This document shows, piece after piece, positions 1-18,815 of a stretch of 64,000 bases of DNA (within the stretch, counting starts at the first letter, position 1; the number at the start of each line of letters is the position of its first letter). The stretch covers positions 1,116,001-1,180,000 of the forward strand of contig JAPEIS010000016.1 in NCBI GenBank assembly GCA_029531795.1, in the 5' to 3' direction. Made by a program: the position numbers and the translations under genes. The notes beneath the pieces are model-generated. The model searched no databases, had not been told where the DNA came from, and saw only the letters and a list, made by a program, of their open reading frames with translations. This DNA is from Sclerotinia nivalis (lineage: Eukaryota > Ascomycota > Leotiomycetes > Helotiales > Sclerotiniaceae).

Positions 1-155
1 GGGGGATATAGTGTTCGGAATATCGTATATTGAAGGATATTATATATTTTTGATTCGGGGATTTAATTGAAGGAAGGGATTTATGTTTTTTCTTTATTTT
101 TCTTTAATTTTTAACGTCCATTTGGGGTCAAATGGATTTCTTGAGGAGGGGGTAT
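1..155 (+). mobile_element. 3' internal end of a gypsy element A copy (A1), entering from the left edge
   Basis: This is the reverse complement, with scattered differences, of the internal end of element A at 9380-9535, so it is the last stretch before the 3' LTR of another A copy in the + direction. It ends in a purine-rich tract (TGAGGAGGGGG, about 142-152) directly before the LTR, as expected of a polypurine primer for plus-strand DNA synthesis. No protein is encoded here; the rest of the copy lies outside the window. Confidence 0.8.
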
Positions 156-208
156 TGTTACAGATTTATTTCCTTTTATTTACATATGATCATATATACC
201 TTAGGTAT
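156..208 (+). repeat. LTR-a, left part (3' LTR of gypsy copy A1)
   Basis: It begins TGTTACAG right after the purine tract and matches the start of the A-type LTR at 9379 (reverse complement). It breaks off at GGTAT (204-208). The missing remainder resumes at 6206-6315. The two parts add up to 53 + 110 = 163 bp, exactly the length of the other A LTRs once the inserted material and one GGTAT copy are removed. Confidence 0.85.
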
Positions 209-290
209 TGTTACGGGTTCATTCCCCTTCACCTGCACGTGATCATGTGTGCCTTAGGCACACATGCATGCACTCACTTCTATATAGTCA
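209..290 (+). repeat. LTR-b, left part (solo A-type LTR inserted in LTR-a)
   Basis: A second A-type LTR begins with TGTTACGG at 209 inside LTR-a. The sequence GGTAT flanks it at 204-208 and 6201-6205, a 5-bp target-site duplication typical of Ty3/gypsy integration. It is cut at 290 by the LINE and resumes at 6120-6200 (82 + 81 = 163 bp). It contains the palindrome TGTGTGCC-TTA-GGCACACA. Confidence 0.85.
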
Positions 291-556
291 CAAGCCTCTC
301 TTAGCTTCTATCAAGAATTGAATTTTTCGAAAAACGCGTTTATTATCGCGTTTTATTGATCAATCGATCGTTCTTATTATCTATAGGATTTAAAAACGAA
401 ACTTTTCAGCCCTGGCAGGCGCTGTACGGACGCGTTTCCGCCATTATGCCTCTCGTCTCTTCGATCCCTTCTCTCTCCCAATCTCTGGTTAATACAATCA
501 ATGCTGCTACTAATAAAGCAAGCAAAGATCAATAGATCTTCAGTTTTATTGCTCTA

Positions 557-1811
557 TTGTGGGACGAATACCTGAATACCGAAGCAGTTCGAGCCCTCCT
601 TGCTCGATTTCGTAAACCTCTGATTGCACTTTGCACCGATATCTCTTCTGTTGTAAACAAATATTTCGATATATATATCAATGGATCTCACCCTTCCCGA
701 GTTAACAAGCTTTTTGTTGCTCTTCTTATTCAATTAGATCCCAAATCCATTCAACAAAAAGCAAAAACCCTTATAATTCAATATCTCAAGGATTCTACTT
801 ATGCTTAGAAAGCCGCAATTCCTTTACCAATTATACAATCTATAATTTCAAAAACTAAGGGCCAATTCAAAGCCCAATCTAAAACCTCAAACAAAACCGA
901 CACTCGCCTTTTTGTTCGTATCGGATTCGATCATTCAGTCCGAAAAGCTGGCTCTTTTGTTGTTCTTAGTGTATTGAAAGGACAATTAGGAAGTAATGCA
1001 AAACTTCTAAAAGAAGTTCAATCAATAAATACTGGATTTGCACTATATACAAATTCTCTAGAGGATTTAACAGCTTTGGAAAACCTTTCAAATATAATCG
1101 AAAAAGTATTCGAAACCTGCAAAATTGAACGACAACAATCATGGATTACCTATCGATAGAACTACATTCTACGAACTATCACAACCCTAGGAGACTTACA
1201 ACAATTGATCATCGTTCCAATCGAATCGGAAACCATACTTGACACTATCAACGATAATATAGGACAACAAACGATTCAAGCAATTGAATCCACACAAAAC
1301 AAAAAACCCAATTTATATCATTCTACTTGGTTTTTGAGCTTCCCAGCCTTACAACATACAATTCTTCCCAAGAACCTCCGGATCCTAGAAACTACAATTA
1401 ATACCTCTCGGATCGTTTTCAAACCCAAGATAATCCAATGCACTCGATGCTTTCAATAGCACAATACTCGAACTTGTTTTTGTCCTGAAAAATGCCGAAT
1501 CTGTGGTACAACCGAATATACGGAAAAAAACTATTCTACCAGATACAATACAATTCATGATTGCTCAGCAAGATGCCTACACTACAGGGGACTACATCCA
1601 GCAAATGATCCTGGGTGCCCCCTTTGTCTTACTATCAAAGGTTTCAAATCCAAAACAGAAAAGCAAATTATCCAGAAAATATCAAAGGCAGTTAGAATCA
1701 AAGCTTGCATCAATGCAAAGTGCTCTAAAGCTTCAAAAGCTGATTCTCCAATGGAAAAACTCATTGCCCCTTCAACCCCAACTCAAACTATCTAGATGCT
1801 ATCTTTGCTAG
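557..1811 (+). pseudogene. LINE ORF1 (gag-like, CCHC zinc knuckles), broken
   Basis: Reading-frame pieces at 557-808, 974-1159, 1205-1459 and 1503-1811 together resemble the nucleic-acid-binding ORF1 protein of Tad-like LINEs. Near 1438-1640 there is a series of Cys/His knuckles: C-X2-C-X3-H-X4-C, then CRIC..HDC, then C-X3-C..H..C. A TAG stop lies inside the first knuckle where Gln is likely original. The family role is packaging the element RNA; this copy has at least four in-frame stops or frame changes and is dead. Confidence 0.75.
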
Positions 1812-1829
1812 TTCCATTTCCCACCAACC

Positions 1830-4800
1830 TTTCTAATTGTTTTATTATATTGGAAACCATTTCTTTTCTGATCCTATTTAATGTATAATCTAAGAACATT
1901 TTCAAAACCCTTGATCATTTTATAAGCTAATGTAGCTAAAAGTATTAGTTCTTATGAATTAGCACTTTCTTTAACTAATGATTCTTATATTGATATAATT
2001 CTGATTCAAGAATCTTATATATTCTCAGATATCTCATGCCGAATTACGAAATCCCATCCGGCCTATGAAACTTTCACATTATTCGATAATTAGGAAACCC
2101 GTTCTCGAATAATATCTTATACTTGCAAAGGAATAGGTATTCGAGTTAGCCAGCTTCGGTTTATTTCCTCTCGGGATTTATTATTTTTACATCTTCAATT
2201 TATAACTGGTTCTATTCTTACAATTATTAATATTTATAATACTCCTAAAAGCAATCAAAACGAAAATCAAACGATAAAAGAATTATTCAATTTACCTTCT
2301 TCCTTTTTTAATTCTATATTTTTTGTAGGGGATTTGAATCTCTATTATACAAAATAAAATCCCTTTTGTTCTATACGCTCTAATCTTACAAAGTTTTTTA
2401 CAAATTGGCTAGATGATTATTCCTTCAATCTTCTTTCTACAATCGGTGAAGCTATTTATGATTTGGGCAGTGTTTTCGATCTTGTATTCCTTTCAGGATC
2501 ATATATAGCTAATACAACATTCGCTCCTTATTTTGATATAATTTCTGATCACAAATCTTTATTAACAACTTTGAATTGGAATATAAGATTTCAAGATCCA
2601 ATTCGAAGATTACAAATTGATACACTTAATGAAAAGCTCTTTTCAACTTTATTAATAGAAAACCTAGCAAATCTAGATCTCTAATCTTTATCTACAACTT
2701 CTGATCTTGATAATCTAGCTTTGAATATTACTCAATCGATACAATTAGCATATACAGAATCAACTCAAAGATCACTTGGCTGAAATATAGGTCAACCATG
2801 GTGGAATGAGGTCTGTCGAACAGCTGTTCAGGAAAATCGAACGAATAGCTCTACAGAATCAAAACAGAATCTTCGAAAGATTGTCAAGAAAGCGAAAAAG
2901 GAATTCTGGTTGTTTAAATTTGATTCAGTTAAAGAAATAAAGGATGTCTTTAAAATGACAAAATGGCATCAATCAGTTGGAATATATCGAACTTCTCCTT
3001 TAGCAGACCCTTTAGATCATTTTTTTGTTACAACCATTCAAGCCAAAAGAGATTTACTCATCAATAATCTGCTGACAAATATAGTTGAGGTTGGCGATAT
3101 CCTTTTCGATTCTTCTATAGTCTTTATTCGTTCCATTCTATTCCCTGAAATTACGATTCAAGATATTCAAATTGCTATCCTCGGTATAGGTAATACAGCT
3201 TCTGGTATGGACGAGATCCCAACCAAGATATTGCAGCTAACATAGTTACAGATTGAATCTAGCATTCTACAACTTTTTCAAAAATGTCTTGAAATAGGCT
3301 ATCATTCTGAATACTTTCGATCAGCGATTATAGCTATCATCCCAAAACCGAACAAATCAGATTATACGAACTCTAGATCCTATAGATCAATAGCTCTATT
3401 TTCGGTACTAGGAAAAGGCCTCGAACATTTGATCACTAAAAAGATATCTTGGATTGTTATAGCCCTCAAAGTACTAACCAAGCAACAATTCGGAGCGCTT
3501 CCTCTATGTTCATCGGTAGATCTCACAATTTGCCTTACATATGATGTGGAAATGGTCTTGAATTCAGGTTCTAAAGCTATTTTATTAATTATGGATATCA
3601 AAGGTGTTTTTGATGTTGTTCTTCTAGGATGTTTAGTCCGTCGACTCAGAGAACAAGGATGGCTTGACAATCTAGTTCGATGGATAAAATCGTTCTCGAT
3701 AAATCGATCAGTTCGTATTCGGCTTGATGGCGAAACAGGGTTTAGTATTAGTATTAAGTGTGGTTTGCTATAAGGTTCCCCAATTTCGCCTATTCTTTTC
3801 ATGTTTTATATAACCCTTTTGTTTTGGTTGGGCAATCCTATCCGAAGATTTGGATATGTAGACGATATTGCACTAGTAGCTTTTTCTTCAAACTTACAAT
3901 CCAATTGTAATCAATTACGATCTGAAATGCTGGAGGCTTTGAATTGGGGCAAATCTGAAGGGATCATTTTCGATTCTAAAAAGTCTGAATTGATATATTT
4001 CTATAGAGGCTTTAGGAAAGATATCGAAAGCCCTACTATTTATATAGAAAATCTTTCAATAACAAAGAAACCAGGTTTGCTGAGATAATTGGGAGTCTAC
4101 TTCGATAGGGAATTGAGTTTCAAATCTCATATCCAAATCCTTACAGCTAAAGCTCTTACAATTGCGAATGCTTTGCGCTCGTTTGGAAGGATAACTCGAA
4201 GCATCCCATCAATTTTACTTCAAAAAGCGGTTACCGCCTGTGTTTTGAAGAAATGCTATTTTGCAACCAAAACCTGGTAGCCTAATCGAACTAGGAAACG
4301 AGATCGAAACTTTATAACCTCGAATCAAGTAGACGGACATTTGAAACTTCTGAATAAGATTGTACTAATTAGTACTCGAGCAATCCTTCCTGTATTCCGC
4401 ACAACTAACACTGCTACCTTATACAAAGAATCAAATCTGATGCCCCCTGAGATTGAGCTCAATCTGATATCCCAAAGCTTCGCAGCCCGAACAACTCGGC
4501 TCGACCCTAAACACCCCCTTCGGGTCCGAACCAAAAATATCCTAGCTAAAGCTGGTATCAGAACCACCGAATCAAAGTTTTCAAGAATTATCCTAGCTCT
4601 TCCAAAAACCGAACATATTAATCCAATTGCACTCCCCCCTTGGAAGAACAAAGAACTTCGTATCACTACGGAAATCAGGATCAATAGTCCTTTCGATCGT
4701 TTGAAGGATCGAGCAGCTAAAGATTTCGAAAGGTTTATATCTACGATTCCAAAAAGTGATTTGCAAGTTTTCTTCGATGGTTCGAAAAGCGAAGCTTTGG

Positions 4801-5666
4801 ATGGTGCTACAAAAAATAGATCAATGACTTATCAATACAATCTACAAATGGATCGATAGATTTTCTCATTAGGTTGTAATACTGAAATCTTCGATGCTGA
4901 AGTAGTTGCAGCTCTAAAAAGTACTCAGATAGCGATTCAATTACTTTCAGTTAGATTTGCTACAGACCTTTGGGTTTTCTTGGATAATCTAGAAATTGTT
5001 ATGCGTTTAGACTCTCATTCGATTAGATCCTTGTAATCTGTATTCGAAAAATTCCGCAAGTTAGTTATAGTTTGGTTTTTCAGATTTCGTTTACCACATA
5101 CCCGCCCTAATTCAATTCGAATTCGATAGATTCCTGGGCATTTAGATATCCCCGGAAACGAAGCAGCGGATAAAACAGCTAAAGAAGAAGCAACACTTTT
5201 ATTCCTATCTGACCCTATTTGTACTCTCGCCTTTTTGAAAAGGATTGCTAAATCGAATACTAAATTAGCAAGATCAAGATTATAAACAATCATAGCACCA
5301 TTAAGCTACAATGATCTTTTTATAACTTATAGCAATCAATCGATCATACTTTCTTTTGAACGAGCGATATTAGGATACATCCTGACAGCTAGATCTCAAC
5401 ACGGCGATTTCGTAGCGTATTATGATCGATTCAATTACGAAGATGCTTATATGCTATGCTCATGTGGGAAAAGAAAATCCCCTTTTCATTTTTACTTTTG
5501 TAAAATTGGAAATGCTCAAAAGACCCTTTCGAAGTTGCTGTTATCTGAAGCTATCCCTTATCTCTTGGGAAGTATGGAAGGAGCAGCGAAACTAGCAGCT
5601 TGGCTCAAATCTACAAGGTTCTATCAGGATATATGTCCTCGATTCCCTGTGCAACTTATAGATTGA
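1830..5666 (+). pseudogene. LINE ORF2 polyprotein: endonuclease, reverse transcriptase, RNase H; broken
   Basis: The endonuclease spans about 1980-2690 (motifs IIQES-like IILIQES, FVGDLNL, SDHKSL). The reverse transcriptase spans about 3190-4090, with SGMDEIPTKIL, a D-x-K-G-FD-like IKGVFD, and the catalytic tetrad GYVDD near 3856. The RNase H spans about 4770-5230 (FFDGSKS, then an IPGH..GNEAAD block). A C-terminal Cys-rich tail (CSCG...H...C) lies at 5455-5500. The conserved Q of the RT GLPQGSP motif is TAA at 3771-3773 with the preceding Pro changed to Leu, and the Trp of the RNase H WIPGH motif is TAG at 5127-5129. Many other stops show that the gene is inactive. Confidence 0.85.
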
Positions 5667-6119
5667 AAGATTGCTTTGATTTTTATTTTTATTTTATTTT
5701 ATTTTTGGGTTCTCTTTGTATAAGGCATTGGGTTTTGGTTCGAAAAGATTGAACTTGTATAAGCTTTAAAAAAATAAAAAAAAATAAAAAAACTTTATAT
5801 TAACAAAAACATATTAAAAAGCTCGATTGCGATAACGAAGGAGAGAAGATCAGGAATCGAGGGATCTAACTATATTATAGAGGACAGCTGAAATATCTAC
5901 CCAAGGGATTAACTCAATACGCAACGGCAATCATGTAAACCCTACTGAAGCATTTAACATATATAATACTAGTAAACTTAGATTAGCTAATTAGAAACTC
6001 AGGGGCCTTTCTCCCCTAGCGTCCTTTGTCCCAATTGGGAATTTGAGGCCTATACTTCGCACAGAGCCTCGGACGAAAAATATCACACACACACACACAC
6101 ACACACTTCTATATAGTCA

Positions 6120-6200
6120 GGTCACCTCCTTGACCTTCTTCCTCTCCTTGTAGTACAACAATAGATCAACACCACTTATACCTTTTCCCTCACCGTGATA
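6120..6200 (+). repeat. LTR-b, right part
   Basis: The sequence resumes directly after the second copy of the LINE target-site duplication and continues the A-type LTR to its end CACCGTGATA at 6200. It is followed by GGTAT, the second copy of the LTR-b target site. Confidence 0.85.
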
Positions 6201-6205
6201 GGTAT

Positions 6206-6315
6206 ATATGCATGTATTCACTTCTATATAATCAGATCATTTCCTTGACCTTTTTCCTCTCCTCATAGTACAACAATAGATCAACATCATTTATACCTTT
6301 TCTCTCACCGTGATA
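6206..6315 (+). repeat. LTR-a, right part
   Basis: This completes the 3' LTR of copy A1 and ends with CACCGTGATA at 6315. It resembles 6120-6200 because both are A-type LTRs. The next bases, GGTAT (6316-6320), belong to element B and form one half of the A1 target-site duplication; the other half is ATACC at 16142-16146, on the opposite strand. Confidence 0.85.
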
Positions 6316-8745
6316 GGTATCTAATGGTATTCTTTTCTAAAGCCTTTAGGATCGATAATGGAAGTGGGTCGGATAGGTAAACTTCAGCGAACAGGGGTTT
6401 CAATTCTTCAGGGGGTTCCAATTGTATAGATTCAGATCATTGGATAGGGATTGGGTTATCGAATATCGCAGGTAATTCAGGTTCACGGGTAGGTAATCTG
6501 GATTTGCGGATAGATAATTCGGAATTGCGGATAGACAATAGAATATCGGTATAGATTTGGCTATAGATTGTAATCGCAAAACAGACTTTCTTCTTTGAAT
6601 TAACAATAGAAAACAGATCTGTATCTAAATTTTCAGTTTTTAGAATAGTTTGGCTTTGATGAAGAAGGCGTTCATTCTTTTCTTTAGGCAAGTTCTTTGA
6701 TCTTCTGATCAGAGTATCGGGTTTCGCTCTTTGCTTTTCAGAACGATACGTAATCTTGAAATTGAAACGGAACAGAAATTCAAATCAACAGATTTGACGA
6801 CGGTTCAATAGCTTTGTGATCATAAAGTACTCCAGATTTTTATAGTCTATAATGATTTTGATTAAAGAAGAAACATTTTCTAATTCGGATCGTTATTCTT
6901 CGAAACAGCAAATAATTGTTAATAATTCTTTATCATAAATCTTGTAATTATATTCCATAATCGAATGCTTTTTAGAGAAATATACAACAAGTTTCAGAAT
7001 CCTATCGTTATCATATTGGGAAAGGACTCTAGTAGATATATAATCCGATATATCTGTCTTTAGAATCACATCCTTCTTCTAATCGAAAAAAGCTAATACA
7101 GATGCTGCTGTAAATACAGCTTTCAAATTCGAAAACGATTTCTCACAAACAAAATCCCATTAAAAGACTACATTCTTTTTGGTCAGATTTACCATCGGAC
7201 GAATAATCGAAGAAAAGTCACGGATAAAATGCTGATAGAAATTGTTAAACCCTATAAACATTTGTATATTTATTAGATTCTTTAATATTTTTCAATTAAT
7301 TATCGTTTTAATCTTGACTGGATTTATTCGGATCCCCTTTCGATCTATAATTAGGCCCAGGAATTTCGTTTCAGGTTTCAGGAATTTGTATTTCGATAGA
7401 TTGGTATACAATCCGGCTTTCTATAAAGCGTCTAATACTTTTTGTATATACTTTATATGTTCAGAATGGGTCTTGTTATAGATGAGAATATTATCTAGAT
7501 AAGTAATATAGAATATATCCAGGTATTCTTTTAGAGTATCGTTGATAAATCGTTGGAACGTTGTTAGAGTTCTGGTCAGTTCGAATGGTATAATTAAGGT
7601 TTTGAATAGACCGAATCGGGTATTATCACGATAAAAGTGACGCCACAATTACCGATTGGTTAATTGGGTTTATATAGTAATCATTCCTCGTGACAGGTAT
7701 AAAATGCAATCAAGTATTCTTATCTTTCTTTGATTCGGATATTATTGAAGGCCGAGATGATATCTATTTTTGTAAAATACTTTATCCCTTTCAGGTTATT
7801 CAAAGATTTTTTGGTTAAGGGTAACAGATATCGGTTTTTCACAAACAGATTATTCAATATATAATAGTTTATATAGAATCAAAGATTACCATCGGGTTTC
7901 TTAACAAATAAAACAGACAAAGTGGAAGCAGAGGAACTCGATCGGATAAATCCTTTTGCTAGGTTTTTCTTTAACCATTTTTGCAAAGCTTTCAATTCGT
8001 TCCGAGATATTGAATATAGAGCTCCAAATGGTAACTTAGCTTTATTTTGTAATCGGATATTATGATTATATAGATGGTGTAGAGATAGTTTATCAATGTT
8101 ATATAAAGAAAATACATCGATCTATGAACGGAATTCAGTAGGCAAGTCTTCGGGAACAGGGTCTTCTTTTTCTTTCAGGATTCGGTTTATCAAGTCGATA
8201 TTAGCTTGGAACATCTTGTAGCCTCGATGGGTGTATATCGAGCAAGCTTGGATTGAAACGCTTGTTATATCTTTTTTCTTTAACGCTTTAGGATAGGGCG
8301 GTAGATAAATAGGATAGGCTTTGATAGGGATATCGGATAGGACTCGGATACTCGATGGTTGCGTAGGCGTATTATAGGACTTCCGGTAGAATTCGTTATC
8401 GAAGCGAAAGGTATTGGATGCGAATCTGATATAGGGATCGTGTTTCTTTAGCCAAACCAGCTCTAGGATAATCGGATAATGGATTAATTCAATAATATAG
8501 ATTTTCGATCTTTTCTCATAGTGATCGTTGATTTGCAGATCGGTTAGGATATAACGATCCGTTCGGTTTTCAGATAGTATTTTTCTGTCGAATCCAATGA
8601 CTTCGAACGAAACAGGTAATTTGTATATTGAGAGCTTGATAGTTTCAATTCAACTTCGGTTTGCGAAAGTATATCCTTCGTATCCGCTATCTACTATAAC
8701 GTAAATGGGATAGGATCGATTAGATATTAGCAGGACAGTAATATA
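6316..8745 (-). pseudogene. Element B gag-pol remnant: aspartic protease, reverse transcriptase, RNase H
   Basis: Read from 8745 downwards. A retropepsin core lies near 8690 (IVDSGYEGYTFA, the DSG being the catalytic triad). A linker is followed by the reverse transcriptase at about 8050-7250, with [19 protein letters not shown] and the tetrad YLDN near 7535, where the second catalytic Asp is replaced by Asn. RNase H lies at about 7140-6840 (ILKTDISDY ... [12 protein letters not shown]), followed by the linker to integrase. No gag gene is recognisable between the LTR and the protease, so the 5' internal region is short or deleted. Stops (for example near 7650 and 6780) and the altered catalytic site show that it is dead. 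Confidence 0.8.
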
Positions 8746-8958
8746 TATCACGGAGGCAGCAGACAGGATAACAGAAATCACTTTTATTGATAAGACGTAG
8801 CTCGAAGAGCTACGTTTCTATAGAAGGAACGGTTCCTTAAATACATTTATGTGTAGCGCTAGCCCCGACCGGGGCTAGCCTACACTTATCCGAGGTCCGA
8901 CTCCTATGGGTCGGAACCCGAGCGGTCTCCGTATACCATATACGGGGACCCCGTGACA
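8746..8958 (-). repeat. 5' LTR of gypsy element B
   Basis: On the - strand it runs from TGTCACGGGG to ..CCGTGATA, 213 bp. The first 34 bases recur as the truncated 3' LTR at 17594 on the + strand. It is unusually rich in inverted repeats: ACGTAGCTC/GAGCTACGT (8795-8815), GCTAGCCCC/GGGGCTAGC (8858-8879, extended by TGTAG/CTACA) and CCGTATA/TATACGG (about 8930-8946). Confidence 0.8.
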
Positions 8959-9216
8959 ATATACAATATCATTAGGTTTGCTCGATTGTTTGATTGATTG
9001 ATTGATTGATTGATTAAATTAACGTCTACACTGAGTCTAAGACTATCTAAGACGGCTAAAGGCTCTTACGAACCCCTAATAGATAATATAATGAAGGTAA
9101 GCTGGCTTATAGGCCTGGCTAAGTATATAATTTAAATGATTGAGGTAAACTCAATCTTTTGAGTTGAATGGGGGAAGTGAAAACTAATCCTGAGGAATAA
9201 TCCCGTTCTACAAATG
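8959..9216. other. Spacer between elements B and A2
   Basis: This flanking sequence contains a (GATT)n run at about 8991-9015 and no coding signal that I recognise. It would have lain upstream of element B before the inversion. The five bases beside the A2 LTR are AAATG (9212-9216), which do not match the flank at the other end of that element. Confidence 0.6.
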
Positions 9217-9379
9217 TATTACGGTGAGGGAAAAGGTATAAGTGGTGTTGATCTATTGTTGTACTACGAGGAGAGGAAGAAGGTCAAGGAGGTGATCTGA
9301 TTATATAGAAGTGAGTGTATGTATGTGTGTTTAAGGTATATATGATTATATATAGGTGAAGGGGAATGAATCTGTAACA
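9217..9379 (-). repeat. 3' LTR of gypsy A2
   Basis: Runs from TGTTACAG (reverse complement ending at 9379) to CCGTAATA at 9217. It is 163 bp, colinear with 15979-16141, LTR-a and LTR-b. The purine-rich primer tract lies just inside at 9380-9395. Differences from the other LTRs are mostly C/T or G/A. Confidence 0.85.
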
Positions 9380-9699
9380 GTATTCTCTTTTCAAGAAACC
9401 CATTTGATTTCAAATGGATGTTAAAAATTAAAGAAAAATAAAGAAAAAATATAGGTCCCTTTCCTCAATTAGGTTTCCGAATCAAAAATGTATGATATCT
9501 TTCAATGTGCGATATTCCGAACGTTATATTTCCTATTGTAATAATACATAATATACTTTTAGGCGAAACAATTAGTTTTGGTGCGAGTGGATTTTCGTAG
9601 AGTGGGTGTAGCAATCTCATCGTGTGGCTCCGGTTGCAAATTCTGTGGTTCCGGTTGCAATATAGCAGTGTCGGGGTGCTTTAGAATTCAAGCTGGTGG

Positions 9700-9870
9700 T
9701 TCTGGTTTTTCTGGGTGAAGGTGATAATATTCGATAAAAACCTTTTCGTTATTCTTTAAATCATTAGCTGGTTGCCAAGTTGATGTGTAGTGTTTCCATT
9801 TGATCAAATAATGGTGGTTATCTTTATTGTGATTATCTAGAACTTTTTCAAATATTTATCTTTGAATAGG
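9700..9870 (-). pseudogene. Chromodomain at the C-terminus of element A pol
   Basis: Reading the - strand gives a short module with VLDNHNKDNHHYLIKWKHY, then STWQPANDL, then a terminal helix. The order YLIKWKxY..TWxPxxDL is the chromodomain signature of chromoviral integrases, which steers integration to heterochromatin in this family. It follows the integrase after one stop (near 9858). Confidence 0.8.
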
Positions 9871-11000
9871 CTTATTCTCATTATCGTTCCGTTTCAAAAC
9901 TCTGTTCTGTGTAGTTAGGGATTTTGATTCGTTAATCGTTGTTTGAGCCGGGAAGTGAGGATCAGTATGAATTGGAAGTAGAAGAGAATAATAGAAAACA
10001 GGGAAGATTTTAATGTTTTCAGGCAATTGAACAAAGCAAATATAGGGATAAACTTTGATAATCTTGTAAGGGTTGGTTCATTTATCATTTAGCTTTTTTG
10101 CTTTATGCGAAATCTTTATATTCTTGGTATTGATGTAAACTTTCTGGTCAATTGTGTAGTGAAGTGAATCAGAACGGTGATGATTAGTATAGTTCTTATA
10201 AGTAGCAATTGTTTGTTGTACAAAAGCATGAAGTTGTTTCAAAATATGTTTTATACAATCCGCGGTCCGATTACCTTTAAAGAATTCCCGTTTTTGTGTT
10301 AGAGTTATATCCGGCGGGCAAAATTTACTAGGCTCGATATCTAGATATGGGTTAAAGCTATAATTGGTGAAGAAGGGCGAGCAACCAATCGTCTCAGAAA
10401 TCATATTATTGGATGCAAACTCGGTTAAGGGTAATCAATTCAATCAATCATTTTGATAGTAATTAACAAAAGCTCGTAAATATTGTTCCAGAACCGAATT
10501 AATATGTTCAATCTGATTATCTGTTTGAGGATGAAAAGCTAAAGAGTGTTTTAAGATAACTCCTAATTGCTCCGAGAGTTGTAACCAGAATCCTGATACG
10601 AATTGTATTCCCTGATTGGAAATGATATTGTTTGGGATTTTATAAAGCATATAAATATAATTGATAAAGGCATCGATTAGCTCTTCTATTGTTAGTGTAT
10701 GTGTATTGATGAAATGTTTCATTTTGGTTAGCTTGTAGATTACCATCAAAATATGTTTATAGGTAAAATTATAGTGAGTGTAATCTGGAAATGGTATAAT
10801 ATAATCGATTGAGATATCAGATTATATGCGAAAAGGGATAGGCAACGGTTTCAAAAATCCGGGAGGCGTCGATTTAGACGATTTGGTGTGAGTACAAAGT
10901 TCGTAGGTTTTCATATAGGATGCGATTTCCAAATGTATATTAGACCACCAATATGTATGAAAGACAAGATCGATTGTTTTAGTTCGACCAGAATAATCAG
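9871..11000 (-). pseudogene. Element A integrase, broken
   Basis: The segments at 10444-10749 and 10078-10404 (- strand) carry the integrase core: IISNQGIQFVSGFW, HPQTDNQIEHINSVLEQYLRAFV, then SPFFTNYSFNP and the C-terminal SH3-like part. The catalytic Asp and Glu are recognisable (ISNQG in place of SDRG suggests loss of the second catalytic Asp). Two former Trp codons between the segments are TGA (about 10437-10446). The family function is strand transfer of the cDNA; this copy cannot perform it. Confidence 0.8.
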
Positions 11001-12142
11001 CAGGATTAGAAGAATAAATTCGATAGATAATTTAGAGCTTGAGTTTATCATCTAATGGAACCCATAGTTTATCTCGATAATAAATTCTATTATTTTGGAT
11101 CAAACAATCCTGTATAACAATCCGAAGAATTTTATGATACTCTTTTGACCATTTAGTTATTGTTGGGAAGACAGGGGATAACAACGGTATTCAAATTAGA
11201 TGAATAATATTGTATTGTATGATGAGTTGTTTTTCTTCTAAGGTTCTCTCCGTACGGAGAGGTTATATATCAAGGTGGGGTAACAACACGTGACCATGTT
11301 CCGACAGTTATCGATGGATTGTTAAGAGTAGAGATAAATTGATCTACAATATCAGATCTAGTATATACTGTATCGATTAAAGTATCAATTGGTTGGTTGT
11401 GGAGCGGTACTATTGTTTCCATCGGTACCAAATTGATGTGTTTAATTAAATCCTTATAAAGATCGGTGTCAAAACGGTTCTGAGGGAGGATAATGCGTTT
11501 TCGATTCTTTAGATACTTATTGTTTGGATCAGAGCGATACGGTCGATCTTTGTGTTTTCTGTTGAGTGTGTTTGGTCGAATAGTTTTGTTTCCCGGTCGA
11601 TAGATTATGCGGAAATTATATTGAGATAGAAATTCGGATTATTGTATCTGTTGTTGATTGAGGGCCTTTGTAGTCATAAAATACTCGAAATTCTTGTGAT
11701 CAATGAGAATCTCGAATTCCTTTTGTAAACCTTGGAGCTTCGGGCGTTATTCTTCTATTGCCTTGATAATAGTGAGTAGTTCTTTGTTGTAGATCTCATA
11801 ATTGTATTCCGTCGTTGTATATTTAGATGAAAAGTAAGCGACCGGATGCAAGATATTATCATCATTGTATTACGAAAGAACTCCTTCTGAGGCTCAATCG
11901 GAAGCATCGGTTTTCAAAGCAGTTTTCCGTCTGTAGTTGAAATATGCCAAAATCGGTGTTGTTGTAAAAGCCCTTTTTAAAGCGTCAAAAGCCTTTGTAT
12001 GATCTGTAGTCCATTTCCATGTAATATTCTTTTGTAAGAGATCGTTGAGAGAATGACAAATCTTTGAAAAATCTTTTATAAAACGCCAATAGAAGTTGGC
12101 GAAGTCAAGAAATCGTTGTAAATCCTTTACACACAAAGGCAA
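11001..12142 (-). pseudogene. Element A RNase H and linker
   Basis: The segment 11894-12142 holds the RT connection and the beginning of RNase H (FANFYWRFIKDFSKI, ALKTDASD). Further down the same strand are [15 protein letters not shown] and ILIDHKNFEYF near 11690-11800, typical gypsy RNase H motifs. The linker before the integrase (11000-11500) is still readable in pieces. Stops at about 11893 and 11640 break it. Confidence 0.75.
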
Positions 12143-12910
12143 CTTTCAAGATATAATAGCCGTGATCTTTTCTTGATCCATTTCGATACCTTCGGTTGTA
12201 ATAATAAGATCCAAATACTTTGTTTTTGTAGTTTCGAATTCGTATTTGTTGATATCAATCTGTAATCCAGCATCCATTAGTTTTTGAATTACTTGACGAA
12301 TATGCTTTTTATACTTTATAGAATTATTGGAGTATATTAAGATATCATCGAGATACGCGGTATAATACTTGTCCAATTCGTCGAAAAGTGTATGATTAAT
12401 ATAATGTTGGAATGATGTAGGCGCATTGCAAAGGCCAAAAGGTATAACTAGAGATTCAAAAAGATCAAAACGAGTGATGAATGCAGTTTTCCATTCATCT
12501 TTTTTAGCGATTCGCAACTTGTTGAATACTGTAATGATATCAAGCTTGGTATAAATTTTTGTATTGTAAAGAGTGTCCAACGTTTTGTGAACGATGGGTA
12601 ATGAATAGTGATTCTTTATGGTAACATTATTGAATCCTTGATAATCTTGATAGATGCGGACTTTTCCTTTAGGCTTGATGGTTAACAGCAAAGGAGAGGC
12701 GCACTGCGATTTCGATTCCCGAATGAATCCTTTGGAGAGATTATCATCGAATCATTTGTGTACCATTATCAATTCCATTGGTGATAAAGAGCGGTTTTTG
12801 AAGTAAGGTGGCTTTTTATCAGGTATCAATTCAATTTTGTGGTCCCAAACTCGGCGAGGTGGTAGCTTATCGGTATAGCGTGGGAGAAAGGCGGGAAGTT
12901 TATCTTGTAA
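12143..12910 (-). pseudogene. Element A reverse transcriptase
   Basis: The longest intact piece, 12146-12691 (181 codons), contains KGKVRIYQDYQGFNNVT, YTKLDIITVFNKLRI, the fingers and palm motif VIPFGLCNAPTSFQ and the catalytic tetrad YLDD near 12350, then TKYLDLIITTEGI. These are diagnostic of Ty3/gypsy RT and both metal-binding Asp residues are kept. It is separated from upstream and downstream pieces by single stops, so it is a recently decayed copy. Confidence 0.85.
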
Positions 12911-14245
12911 TCATTTAGGGAGCCTTTGCTGTATTTGATCATCACTAAGGGAAGGTTTATTGGTTAAAAATTTATCGATATTAGTTTCAGAGACCTTCTG
13001 CAGATGGAGCGGTTTATAGCAATCGTATACAAAATTATAAAGTTGTAGTGGAGTTTTAGAGAGTATCTCTATTATATCGCTTTGCCTTTGTAAAATCGAT
13101 TGAAAATCCTTTTCTGTAAGTATTGGGAACAATGTAGTTTGTTGCAGATGATCTTGCTCAATAATTTTCTGTGCAGTATTTAACTCATCCTATGTCAATC
13201 GGATAGCCCGAATGTTATTTTGTTGATAGAACGAAACAAAGCTAGAAGTTTGTAATCAACGAATGTCATTTATATTTGGGTTTGTACCCTGGTAGATGGG
13301 TATAGAAAGTTCCTCAACAGAAAGCAAGGGCAAATAGTTTTTTGGATTGTGAATAGGGCAATGTCGACCCGCAACCTTCAAAATCGATTTTGGATGTAGA
13401 CAATTGAAAATCATTTGTATTTGATTATTTGATTCCCTATAGTGCTTTGTTCGATAATGATTCACGCTAAACGTTAGACCTTGTTGAAATTCGAGATCAA
13501 TAGAAGAATCATCAAATTGTAATATATAATCCTCATCCAGTATCTCTTCGATAAAAGGTTTTTTATAGGGGGCTCCTTTAGAAACAGAAAACGTTTAAAT
13601 AGGTTGAGAATCGGTATCATTCTTTGGACAATCTTCGATATAGGGAGAGCGATATTTATAATCCGTATATTTAGTTTTTATATCAAGGTCAGTAAGGAAT
13701 TTATGTAAAGGTTTGATAATATCGATAATCTGTTGTAGGGTAACTTTTGTTAGATCCTTTTGGTCCTTGATCGGAGATGGGATTGTTGGTGCGTTAATTG
13801 ACTTTGAATTATGATGTATTGAGCAATTGAAAACATAATAATTTGAAGAGAATGTTAAACTCATCTCTGTTCAATTGATAGTAGGATTGTAACATTGCAA
13901 TTATGGTAAACCAAAGATTAACGATGTTTCTGATGAAAGCTGGGTAATGTAAAAAGATCAATATTTATGATGATCTTCTATAGTGATTTCCATCACAAAA
14001 TATTCTGTAATTCTATTGGCGACCTTTTTATTGGCAAGTCGAAGTTCGCGAGGAAAAGGTAAGAATTGTGTTTTGATGTTGTATTTGAGGGCAAAAGAAC
14101 GATCAGCGAAAGCTTCTTCGGAGTATTTATTATCAATGAGATTTGTAATAGTAAAAGGGTTTTCATATGTAGGGAATATAGTGGTTTTAACGAGTAGAGA
14201 TTTGCTATTCATAGAGTTGAGCTGTAATGGTTTATATCTATTCAT
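12911..14245 (-). pseudogene. Element A protease and protease-RT linker
   Basis: The piece 13958-14245 matches a gypsy retropepsin: TITNLIDNKYSEEAFADRSFA stands where the family has LIDSGASxxFI, so the catalytic Ser-Gly is changed. It is followed by the flap and the ILG-like helix (SLIFGLPWLQCYNP, about 13890-13925). The pieces 13595-13864, 13256-13465 and 12911-13132 are the poorly conserved linker to RT. Confidence 0.7.
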
Positions 14246-14299
14246 TCTTCGATTTACTTTTTTGCCCTTAGTATTTCTTTACGAGTGATTTTTTGCAGA

Positions 14300-15450
14300 G
14301 GTTAGTCTTTTCCCTGTTCGGGATTTTCTTTAATTGAATTGGGTGTAGAGATAACCTTTTCTGGTTTGATATAGCCTTGCTATTGTATCTGATTCAGATA
14401 TTGTTGATCTTGTATTCAATTACCAATATATCCTCTTCGAAATCCATTGCGACTATTGTTAGATCTATTGGCGCCTCGGAAAGCCGGGGCGGCGGTACAT
14501 TGAATGGGGGTCAGATTAGTTGGGGCAGCAGTATTATAATTAGAGGTGTTAGCAGAAGCCTGTTTACCGGGAAGAAGATTATCGTTGATATTATAAATAA
14601 CATAACAATCAATTTGAAGATGATCGATTCTATTATAACAATTACAAGAAATTGTAGAATTAAATTTCTTTTTCTTATTTTATTGATCTTTTTGTTGTTG
14701 TCCCTTTTGCTTCATTGTATTAAGATCCATAGGGTCATCACCACCAACAACAAATGTATTACCAGAATTTTTGTTATAATATTTGGCATCACGAAGATTC
14801 TGATTCCAAATAAAGAATTTCTTTTGCCAACCATCAATATCATCGACAACACAAAGATTCGAATTATTAATAACCAAAGTTCGGAAAGGGGCAGTAACCT
14901 TTTACTTTATTACATTAACAATCTCGCGATCAGATTTGTAGCAAAAATTAACCAAATGAGACAATGTAGAGAAAAAAGCCGAAAAAGATTCCTTTGAATT
15001 TATAGAAAGTTTGTCGAATTTGAGCGAAACTTCCCTTTCAATATCCACAGAGATATATAATTTGTTTAGTTTGACCAAAAACGAAGTAGCAAAATCGAAA
15101 CAAATAGAATCGTCAACAAATCTAATGATATCCGTAATACACTCTTATCGCGCTTAACCATCAAAAAGATTAATAGTGTAACTAATCTTCTTTTGTTCGG
15201 AAGCAAAAAGTTATGAATCGACCATCCAACAAAATTGCAAACCCAACTTCCAAGACTGATAATCCTCTTGGCAAACAAGAATATTAGATCTTTCACCTTT
15301 AAAAACAAACGGGTCCTTTTGAGTTTAACAGGGAATGGTTGATTTTTGGCTAGTAACAACACCACCGGCGTCCAGTTGAGCTTGTTTACCAGCCAAGATG
15401 CGAAGGAGCCCGACGTTTTCCGCTTTGCATTCTTCGATCTTATTTATTTG
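14300..15450 (-). pseudogene. Element A gag remnant
   Basis: Reading the - strand downwards from about 15340 gives a gag-like frame (KDPFVFKGERS..., then ISVDIEREVSLKFDKLS..., then FRTLVINNSN at 14877). It ends near 14600-14660 in a degenerate Cys/His knuckle (CNCYNRIDHLQIDC) followed by a Pro/Asn-rich tail. These are typical of gypsy capsid-nucleocapsid proteins. Several stops interrupt it. The 5' leader (about 15450-15978) is A-rich on the + strand and carries repeated CACAAAAGCAA-like words, with no gene. Confidence 0.65.
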
Positions 15451-15978
15451 AATAACGATATAGATAACTTGAATAGTAAAGCGATCTTCAATAATAGAGA
15501 AAATATAATTCAGATAAGTAGTTTATTCGTCAGGACCAGTAACGAGGTTTGGCATTACCGGAGCATCCAATTTTGCTAGGATTTGTGTAATAATAGGCCA
15601 TTGACCGAAGACTCATTGGATTCCAGCACGAACTCCCTCGATAGAAATAGGAATCGCACCACTAGCAGATATAGAACCAGAAGCTATTGTAAAAAGAATT
15701 ATAATTGTACAAAAGTAATCGATAGAGAAATTGCAACCACACAAAAGCAAACAATAGGGAAAATACAACTATACAAAAGCAACACATACACAAAGTGCGA
15801 TCACACAAAAACGAAATAAAAAAGCTGCACAAAAACAGATAAGAAATGCAACTGTACAAAGTCAAGCGAATTACGACAACACAAAAGCAATCGAAAACAG
15901 ACACAGAAGCCTACAAATGATTTGACAAGACCAAATCACTTCGTAAAATGACAGGGTCTTTGAAAAAGTAGTACAAAC

Positions 15979-16141
15979 TATCACAGTAAGAGAAAAAGTA
16001 TAAGTGGTATTGATCTATTATTGTACTACGAGGAGAGGAAGAAGGTCAAAAAGGTGACCTAACTATATAGAAGTGAGTGCATGCATGTGTGCCTAAGGCA
16101 CACATGATCACGTGCAGATGAAGGGGAATGAACCCGTAACA
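15979..16141 (-). repeat. 5' LTR of gypsy A2
   Basis: 163 bp, from TGTTACGGG (reverse complement ending at 16141) to ..CTGTGATA at 15979. It adjoins ATACC (16142-16146), which is element B sequence. This is where A entered B. Confidence 0.85.
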
Positions 16142-17627
16142 ATACCTGTATATTATATTATCTGAATATACTATAAATAATAATCTATTATATTATCATA
16201 AAAAGCTTTATATCCCTAACTACGATCCTTTAAAAGTAAAGCTCTTCCGAATGATTTACGATTCCTCTATTGTCGGATACCCGTATTATATCTATACCTT
16301 CGAACTGTTTTTTCGAAATTACTATTGATCTAGATATTACAATTACATCTCCTGTTGAATATACAATTATTATAGTTGCTACCAAACCACCCCAAACCGT
16401 AGAGAACAAAAAGAAATCTTACACTTTCTCCCGATCCTATAACAAACTTGAAAAGATATCTCAATCGATTTCATCATTTATCTTCCGAAAAGCTCTGAGT
16501 ACGATACGATATTTGTTGTAGTCAATCGATTAACCAAGATGAAGCATTTTCTGCCCTACCAAGGAATCTATAACTCCAAAGAAGTCTTTCATCTATTCCT
16601 AAAACATATATAGAAGCTCTACAGTTTACTGCAAACCATTATATCCGATCGTAGAGTTCAATTTATCTTTGACTTTTAGAAGTATATCTGTAAACAATTA
16701 GATATTGCTTTGAAACTGTTGACAACTTATCATCCTAAAATCGATGAACAAACAGAAAAAGCGAATACAATACTCGAATAATACCTTCGCTTGTATATAT
16801 CCTATCTGTAAAACGATTGATCCAAATAGCTATCGATTGTTGAATTCTCGATTAATTTTGTCTAATCCGAAAGCTTCTGTTTGTCGCCGTTCTTTGCCAA
16901 TTACAGTTTTCATTCCCGAATAGATTTCAAACCCGCTGTACTCTTCGATTGCCCTGGAGTTCTGAATGTTGAGGAATTCGTCAAAAAGATGAAATCGATC
17001 GTCGATCACCTGAAGATCGAATTGACTGTTAGTCAAACCCGCTATTCGAAGAATGCCGATTCCCGTTGTTCGTTTGTCCGTCGATACCAATCTGAAGATC
17101 TAATCTAGTTTAATGCTAAGAATATCCGAATTCTTTGTCCTCAAAAGAAACTAAATTGGAAGAACTTAGATCCTTTCCGAATCTTGAAAGCTATAGATTT
17201 GTATACTTATAAACTAAAGCTCTCTGCCTCTATAAGGAATCATTCAATCTTTTATGTTAATCTGTTTCAATCTTTTATGTTAATCTGTTGTATCCTGCCA
17301 ATGATGATTTTATCCCTGGTCAATGTAATTCATTCTTTCCTTCTATCGAAGTTGAAGGTATTGAGCAATTCGATGTAAAAGAAGTCCTGGATTCCCGATG
17401 GGAATGTTGAGGCTGTGGTGGCCCCCGTCTAAAGTATACTGTCCGATGGGTAGGCTATAATATATCTATCGAAAAGCCTACGGAATATTTGGAGAATGTT
17501 CAAGAACTGATCCGTAATTACCATCATCGTTATCCGGATAAACCTGGTCCCCCTAATCGTTTCAATGGAGCTCGACCCTAAGAAGAGGGGTACTGTCATG
17601 GGGTCCCTGTATATGGTATATACGGAG
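16142..17627 (+). mobile_element. Gypsy element B, 3' part (integrase, chromodomain, truncated 3' LTR)
   Basis: The + strand frame starting at 16142 continues element B pol exactly where it is cut at 6316 on the - strand: the codons for ..TIRY are followed here by LYII, and the duplicated target bases ATACC/GGTAT coincide. The part ends with a purine tract AAGAAGAGGGG and the first 34 bases of the B LTR (17594-17627). The rest of the LTR is missing. Confidence 0.85.
16147..17560 (+). pseudogene. Element B integrase and chromodomain, broken
   Basis: Near 16200-16280 lies the N-terminal zinc-binding region (KLYIPNYDPLKVKLFRMIYDSS). The core at about 16560-16900 has IISDRRVQFIFDF, TTYHPKIDEQTEKANTILE and SPFFANYSF. 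A linker contains a 22-bp tandem duplication at about 17245-17292. A C-terminal chromodomain-like segment lies at 17430-17545 ([26 protein letters not shown]). Stops replace Gln (TAA at 16779-16781) and Trp codons. The catalytic DDE region is partly recognisable but the gene is inactive. Confidence 0.8.
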
Positions 17628-17641
17628 GTTGATGAGGAAAG

Positions 17642-18357
17642 TATTGTAAGATACACTAAAAAGCGGCTGTGCTTTACCCCACATGCAAAAGTTTTAGCTA
17701 ATAAAAACCTCTTGCTCTCTAAAAATTTGTATAGTAGAAATCAGATGAATAAAGTATTGTAAGGAAATTCTATGAATAATCAAAATTTTGTATATATTCT
17801 ATTCGATGATATTATAGTTTTACAATGTTCTTTTATAGATCTAAATAATCTTATTAAATAATCCTCTAATATTGTTTCTTATACTTTCTTTATAGCTATT
17901 CTAAACCTATTATAGCTTATATCATCTTTAGAATAATAATCTGATATCCATTTCTTTATTTAATTTTATACATTTTCAATAGGATTAAGATCAAAAGAAA
18001 AGAGAAATCATTCAATCTTTTGAATATTTCTTTCAAAAAGCTTTGCAACAATTTTATAAAGAGTTTTGGATATAGCCAATAACAACAAAAGCAAAAAAGG
18101 AGATAGAAGTAGAAAGATTAATAGGGAAGATTCCTTTAATAATGCTTGCATTTCTATTTTGATAAATTTGAAGATATAAATTATTGTTCTATTAGTTGTT
18201 AATTATAATGATTCTCGTGGTTTTTCTATAAAGTACTTTGAGTTTCTGAATCGTATTATCTTTATTAAAGCAGCATCAAAATAAAGTAAAAAGGCCAATA
18301 AAAACCTCTCGTTTAAGTTCTACAAGGATGTGTGGGGCTTTAGCGTGTCTTACATTA
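17642..18357 (-). mobile_element. Tc1/mariner remnant with imperfect terminal inverted repeats
   Basis: The ends TATTGTAAGATACACTAAA.. (from 17642) and the reverse complement of ..TTTAGCGTGTCTTACATTA (to 18357) are imperfect inverted repeats that both extend to a CCCCACA box. On the - strand near 17940-18080 a frame reads FSFDLNPIENV, the DLNPIENVW motif around the last catalytic residue of Tc1/mariner transposases; the following Trp is a stop. At about 716 bp the element has lost most of its transposase. It lies just beyond the truncated B 3' LTR. Confidence 0.7.
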
Positions 18358-18815
18358 CTTACCCTTCCAACTTACGTACGTAAACCCAATGTCTATATCA
18401 TTCATCTCCATCGCACAATATCTATTACGACTATACGAGTACAACAACCCTGGCGGTGGTTACGTTCTTCAGCACCTGTAGGTAGGCGGACCTTGAGTCT
18501 CCTCTACTAGGCTGGCTAGGTATCACCTCTTGTAGGCTGGTCAAATGTCACCTGTAGTAGGCGGACCTTGAGTCTCCTCTCCTAGGCTGGCTAGGTATCA
18601 CCTCTTGTAGGCTGGTCAAATGTCACCTGTAGTAAGGAGACTAAGTATCTTCTCCTTACAACGAGTTTGGTTTCTAGATGAATATATTGTTGAGGATAGT
18701 ATTCTAAGGCTTTTTATTCTGCTCTTATTGGTATTATCTTATTACCTATCAGAATGGCGCTAACAATTGTCTTTCCAGGTGTCCTATCTTGAATACAGTA
18801 TAACAACAGGCCGCT
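18358..18815. other. Intergenic region with a 75-bp tandem repeat
   Basis: There is no gene that I recognise. The middle holds two copies of a 75-bp unit (18484-18558 and 18559-18633) differing at very few bases, with a partial third start (TAGTAAGGAGAC). The unit is itself built from TAGGCTGG and CACCT..GTAG words. Confidence 0.6.
18484..18633. repeat. 75-bp tandem duplication
   Basis: Copy 1 starts AGGCGGACCTTGAGTCTCCT at 18484 and copy 2 repeats it at 18559. The copies are nearly identical, differing for example in CTACTAGG versus CTCCTAGG. Their freshness contrasts with the old transposons to the left. Confidence 0.85.

Follow-up and report, generated by a model that had tools for sequence, protein, structure and literature searches.

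Inversions caused by the element Galileo in Drosophila buzzatii have been studied with both breakpoints and the non-inverted chromosome at hand, and both breakpoint copies of Galileo proved to be chimeric (PMC2775673). In the fungus Mycosphaerella fijiensis, 125 long terminal repeat (LTR) elements were set aside from an analysis of 515 others because of unlike 5' and 3' insertion sites, which were read as traces of ectopic recombination (PMC3562529). Here we consider a window of 64,000 nucleotides of Sclerotinia nivalis (contig JAPEIS010000016.1, here C16, positions 1116001–1180000; genome of 50.3 Mb in 31 contigs), whose bases 1 to ~18,300 are AT-rich and filled with nested, decayed mobile elements. 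In this block a Ty3/gypsy-type element, B, is split by an insertion of another LTR element, A, and the middle of B is inverted.

The present case and that of Galileo (PMC2775673) have in common two copies of an element lying in opposite directions, with further elements nested within the copies at the breakpoints; target duplications were exchanged in Galileo and appear to have been exchanged here. They differ in that Galileo is a DNA transposon, while here LTR retrotransposons are involved, one reciprocal flank is missing, and the chimerism of the complete A copy (A2) is putative. Similar to M. fijiensis, a fungus with repeat-induced point mutation, the locus contains an LTR element with unlike flanks; the relevant passages of that work (PMC3562529) give a genome-wide count and do not reconstruct the partners, whereas the present locus reveals both a partner copy and the segment that was inverted. 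The mechanism itself is already established, and the locus is a clear new example of it, very legibly preserved: a well-resolved case of nested retroelements rearranging a decaying repeat block, in which duplications and reading frames tell what happened first and what later.

The first half of B (6321–8988, minus strand) extends from near the protease to RNase H, as identified by Pfam matches (RVT_1, RT_RNaseH) and by alignment to the B copies L021, L050, and L051. The second half (16147–17627, plus strand) extends from the integrase to the start of the 3' LTR (~17594) and is broken at ~17627; here, positions 2301–3761 of L021 match 16142–17627. The minus-strand translation of 6317–6616 ends in ALEKNTIRY; on the plus strand B begins, duplication included, at 16142, and the translation from 16143 is YLYIILSEYTINNN; and the uninterrupted copy L021 reads ALKKNTVRYPHITLSKYTINNN over the joint. 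In L021, RNase H is followed in one frame by the integrase H2C2 zinc domain, whose match starts ~29 residues past the joint. Hence, the Ty3/gypsy order is seen for reverse transcriptase and RNase H in the first half of B in the window, and for RNase H and Integrase_H2C2 in L021. H2C2 was not detected in the window's own second half, even at E 0.1, presumably because this part is too decayed, and SH3_Tf2-1 alone was found there. A preliminary description of this DNA had the frame ending in TIRY continue on the plus strand into the integrase zinc-binding region; the continuation of the frame is borne out by L021, while the zinc domain itself is undetected in the window and is placed by the L021 alignment.

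The genome was searched for B, with 40 matches scored out of 293 candidates and loci cut for 30, one of them the window itself. An empty-site query was made of 100 bases from each flank and one ATACC (205 bases). In all 29 other B copies cut, it aligns over at least 195 of the 205 bases, with the central 70 columns ungapped, and the score summed over these copies is highest with one ATACC (8436, compared to 7980 with none and 8164 with two). L021 maps to 8690–7696, 7623–6316, and 16142–17627, its halves overlapping by exactly 5 nt at the joint (L021 2305/2301). The ungapped join with a single ATACC and the 5-base overlap mean that one A had inserted in B. Thus, B is one Ty3/gypsy-type element with an A insertion (alpha) at ATACC, and its middle has come to lie in inverse orientation to the 3' part. 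The limits of the inversion coincide with A ends whose target duplications are mates: GGTAT at 6316–6320, outside the A LTR denoted X, and ATACC at 16142–16146 (both as read on the plus strand), identified by the empty-site join and the L021 overlap. This agrees with the earlier proposal that these two pentamers are halves of one 5-bp duplication and that A had inserted in B before one part was inverted. Both breaks indeed abut A LTRs (X ends at 6315, A2 at 16141); the splitting of X by two later insertions, given below, had escaped that proposal.

A2 (9217–16141, minus strand) is a complete A element of Ty3/gypsy order and a putative chimera of the 3' part of one copy, beta, and the 5' part of alpha. 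Its LTRs (9217–9379 and 15979–16141, minus strand, 163 nt each) enclose matches to RVT_1, RT_RNaseH, and Integrase_H2C2, and no match to rve. The LTRs had been called matching; they are only 83% alike. The unlike flanks reported together with them stand: in coding sense, GGTAT precedes A2 and CATTT follows it (plus strand: AAATG at 9212–9216, ATACC at 16142–16146). Reverse transcriptase, RNase H, integrase zinc domain, and SH3 in this order, the 163-nt LTRs, and the 5-bp duplications all resemble chromodomain Ty3/gypsy elements. However, the chromodomain match is weak (Chromo, 22.4 bits with a Pfam cut-off of 25.1, E 1.1e-4), and the SH3 match is likewise under its cut-off; A is unusual only in its arrangement here. 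An insert of ~139 nt in A2 (11167–11305) is absent from the left A copy (A1), whose alignments overlap by 12 bases at this point, and from seven spanning copies (L002–L008).

Unlike flanks are not the rule for A. Both ends were located in 11 control copies, of which ten have exactly matching flanks and one is off by one transition (4/4 exact in the first set; in the second, 6/7 exact and one with a transition). Copies c06, c03, and c08, with one end each, were dropped from the first set; the second consisted of 10 copies among the 40 listed A matches, on the plus strand and starting at query base 1; 3 of these, lacking a 5' end where one was expected, were dropped. As the sampled copies keep their duplications, unlike flanks could flag rearrangements genome-wide. 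The 14-mer TGTTACGGGTTCAT from the start of the LTR has 276 exact matches, inner junctions of 3' LTRs included. GGTAT precedes 6 of them (two of the six in this window) and occurs in none of the 11 control duplications, so we do not consider it a preferred target of A. Taken alone, the 5-base GGTAT/ATACC match is weak evidence; the case is carried by the exact B join, which is independent of that match.

The CATTT flank (9212–9216, minus strand; AAATG on the plus strand) was correctly located in the preliminary description, and its source proved to be a high-copy short interspersed repeat, S, rather than B. The 3' part of S (8989–9216, minus strand, tail boundary approximate) has an (AATC)n tail against B and is cut at its CATTT by the 3' LTR of A2. 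At least 41 genome matches to S are listed, including that of the window; 39 others are 93–98% alike and one 77%, i.e., S is little decayed in spite of its high copy number. Four other S copies run upstream past the cut through GC[A/G]TTTGTA, one with CATTT and three with CGTTT; therefore, the 3' LTR of A2 sits inside S. An assignment of 8959–9216 to B was rejected, as genome matches show most of it to be this separate repeat. B resumes at ~8988 beyond the S tail and, with a solo LTR and one ATATA removed, aligns to L050 and L051 (2/2 copies) over 169 and 170 bases with no gap, hence S adjoins the same B. Judging from these alignments, S would have inserted in this B, and the A copy beta in S, which probably places alpha and beta, in opposite directions, on a single B.

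A single homologous exchange between alpha and beta very probably explains the inverted middle of B, the split ends of alpha, and the unlike flanks of A2. Under this model, one B would have held two opposite A insertions with their 3' ends facing: beta, flanked by the duplication CATTT, in S near the start of the B protease, and alpha, flanked by ATACC, between RNase H and integrase. The exchange would then have flipped everything from one crossover point to the other, i.e., the middle of B, S, and both A 3' parts. Alpha would thereby have one of its ends in the 3' LTR of A1 and the other in the 5' LTR of A2, and A2 would be a chimera with unlike flanks. A subsequent event probably removed the 5' end of beta together with the reciprocal junction. 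Within this model we infer the insertion of S in this B, the singleness of the exchange, its place, and the loss of the 5' end of beta. As the model implies, A1 (plus strand) and A2 (minus strand) flank the inverted piece in opposite orientation, and the ATACC/GGTAT mates stand at the ends of both B halves; the CATTT pair is present on one side only. Recombination of two opposite A copies, proposed previously, is therefore supported in that one event accounts for the A2 flanks, while its reciprocal junction is missing. The spacing between the A insertions is now 2.9 kb (6316–9216), including small inserts, which may be later.

Several observations weigh against this model. The junction of CATTT with the 5' LTR of A1, which both the model and the preliminary description predict, is missing, as A1 lacks its first 361 bases. 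CATTT precedes an A LTR start in 0 of 54 genome places (up to two mismatches in a 19-mer), and a longer S–A junction pattern has no genome match at up to three mismatches, although more decayed junctions would be missed. The similarity of A1 and A2 is not specific to this pair either: the two differ by 934 transitions and 7 transversions (6251 sites; 1.1 transversions per kb, within a range of 0.9 to 7.9 over the listed pairs of A copies), and so few transversions indicate that they were close copies before decay, in favor of the model, but A1 and c08 also differ by as few as 2 transversions in 1980 sites (3' region only).

Chimerism of A2 was also sought in the strand polarity of C-to-T/G-to-A decay, with the change point set by the gain in log-likelihood. 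The polarity of A2 switches at A position 1304 with a gain of 27.8, C-to-T being seen at 59/81 sites before this point and at 9/66 after it (within A 1–2530). Here again there is contrary evidence: two of five normal copies also switch (c04, gain 14.3; c07, 13.3), and A1 does not mirror the switch at 1304 (its best point is 748, gain 5.1). With the first 362 bases omitted, the gains are 21.3 for A2, 7.2 for c04, and 13.8 for c07. Given the switches in c04 and c07 and the absence of a mirror in A1, we did not use polarity as evidence of chimerism. It seems unlikely that the switch in A2 (window position 14838) is the crossover, with alpha and beta having mutated on opposite strands beforehand; if it were, the bias of repeat mutation toward one strand could generally serve to locate old exchanges among decayed elements. 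The switch point between the A copies that the preliminary description hoped to find by alignment could thus not be fixed.

Pairing of the LTRs by similarity at first seemed to contradict the model, as X has G-to-A changes in common with the 3' LTR of A2 and none with its 5' LTR. However, the first of these changes (CAGATT) are seen in three of seven other A 3' LTRs, while the remaining four show different G-to-A or C-to-T changes at this spot. C-to-T also stands at the inner edge of five other A 5' LTRs, so that the sharing looks like a property of the LTR position, and the pairing was discarded. No transversion is found among X, the two A2 LTRs (aligned), and Y, a solo A LTR within X (by eye), which leaves such pairing without power. 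More generally, C-to-T changes cluster at the inner edge of A 5' LTRs, the inner edge of 3' LTRs has mostly G-to-A, and the outer LTR ends are mostly spared.

Three alternatives to the proposed exchange of alpha with beta were weighed. That B was inverted by some other means, be it end joining, template switching, or an exchange of the A2 3' part with a third A copy, appears very improbable. The 5' half of A1, having lost its outer end, is not tied to beta, and A is abundant, as the 276 LTR-start matches indicate; nevertheless, end joining would have to hit the LTR ends exactly and keep the mate duplications, and a third locus is not needed, as S with beta adjoins the same B. Even less credence is due to a mis-assembly joining the wrong halves of two A copies. 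The region is repeat-rich, its arrangement is read from the assembly only, and Y agrees with the 5' LTR of A2 at 79 of 80 bases; on the other hand, A1 and A2 agree at 84.9% of the 6251 sites compared between them, with a longest exact shared run of at most 44 bases, which is poor material for a false join, and there is no N in the window. A coincidence, with two B copies hit separately by A at the same site and now lying side by side, is extremely unlikely: A does often land in other elements (of the five copies fetched, c02, c04, and c07 are inside other A copies), but the same B base would have been hit twice, GGTAT is absent from the 11 control duplications, and the mismatched flanks of A2 would be a further accident.

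The left copy enters the window with the 3' end of its internal region (A1, 1–155, plus strand; blastn to A2) and runs on to C16:1103027 (window coordinate −12973). A related element, D, interrupts it to the left of the window, A positions 6096–6100 being the exact overlap of 5 bases. The 110 kb left of the window were examined for the 5' end of A1. Its first 361 bases are replaced there by the 5' LTR of an element E (minus strand, chromodomain, putative duplication GCTTT), which spans window coordinates −18430 to −12974 (C16 ~1097570–1103026) and breaks off at its 3' end near −18.43 kb, where no 3' LTR of E was found; this suggests a second rearrangement or a deletion. Farther left, at −47.6 and −46.6 kb, stand two more LTRs of E, both of them independent solo LTRs with duplications of their own. 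The pattern of the lost A–E junction matches 24 places with two or three mismatches (9 places for a control pattern), none of which has both an A side fitting by transitions and the E end.

A nest of three levels occupies 156–6315 (plus strand). X, the 3' LTR of A1 (156–208 and 6206–6315; identified by sequence and blastn), abuts B at 6315. Inserted in it is the solo LTR Y (209–6200, plus strand), with the duplication GGTAT at 204–208 and 6201–6205; this GGTAT is the decayed GGCAC of X, which implies that Y arrived after that decay. Y is in turn split by a long interspersed nuclear element (LINE; 291–6103, plus strand) with endonuclease and reverse transcriptase (Pfam Exo_endo_phos_2, RVT_1), a (CA)n tail, and the 16-bp duplication CACTTCTATATAGTCA at 275–290 and 6104–6119.

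The transition-heavy divergence of A1 and A2 speaks for repeat-induced C-to-T mutation, with a weak preference for CA (CA ~24%, CT 22%, CC 24%, CG 14–18% of sites). The first half of B contains a 72-nt insert (7624–7695) with ends TATCACG..CGTGACA and the duplication GGTAT, the third insertion in the neighborhood with this pentamer, after alpha and Y. It also contains a solo LTR of B type (8746–8958, minus strand; duplication ATATA at 8741–8745 and 8959–8963), which is the same in 213/213 bases as a copy at window coordinates −50619 to −50407, ~59 kb away on the left, and is, given this identity, probably recent. After the break in the B 3' LTR, the stretch 17627–18360 has similar inverted ends (by eye only) and is perhaps a DNA transposon. 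It is followed at 18482–18631 by a tandem array with 25-base spacing, whose 75-base copies are 99% alike.

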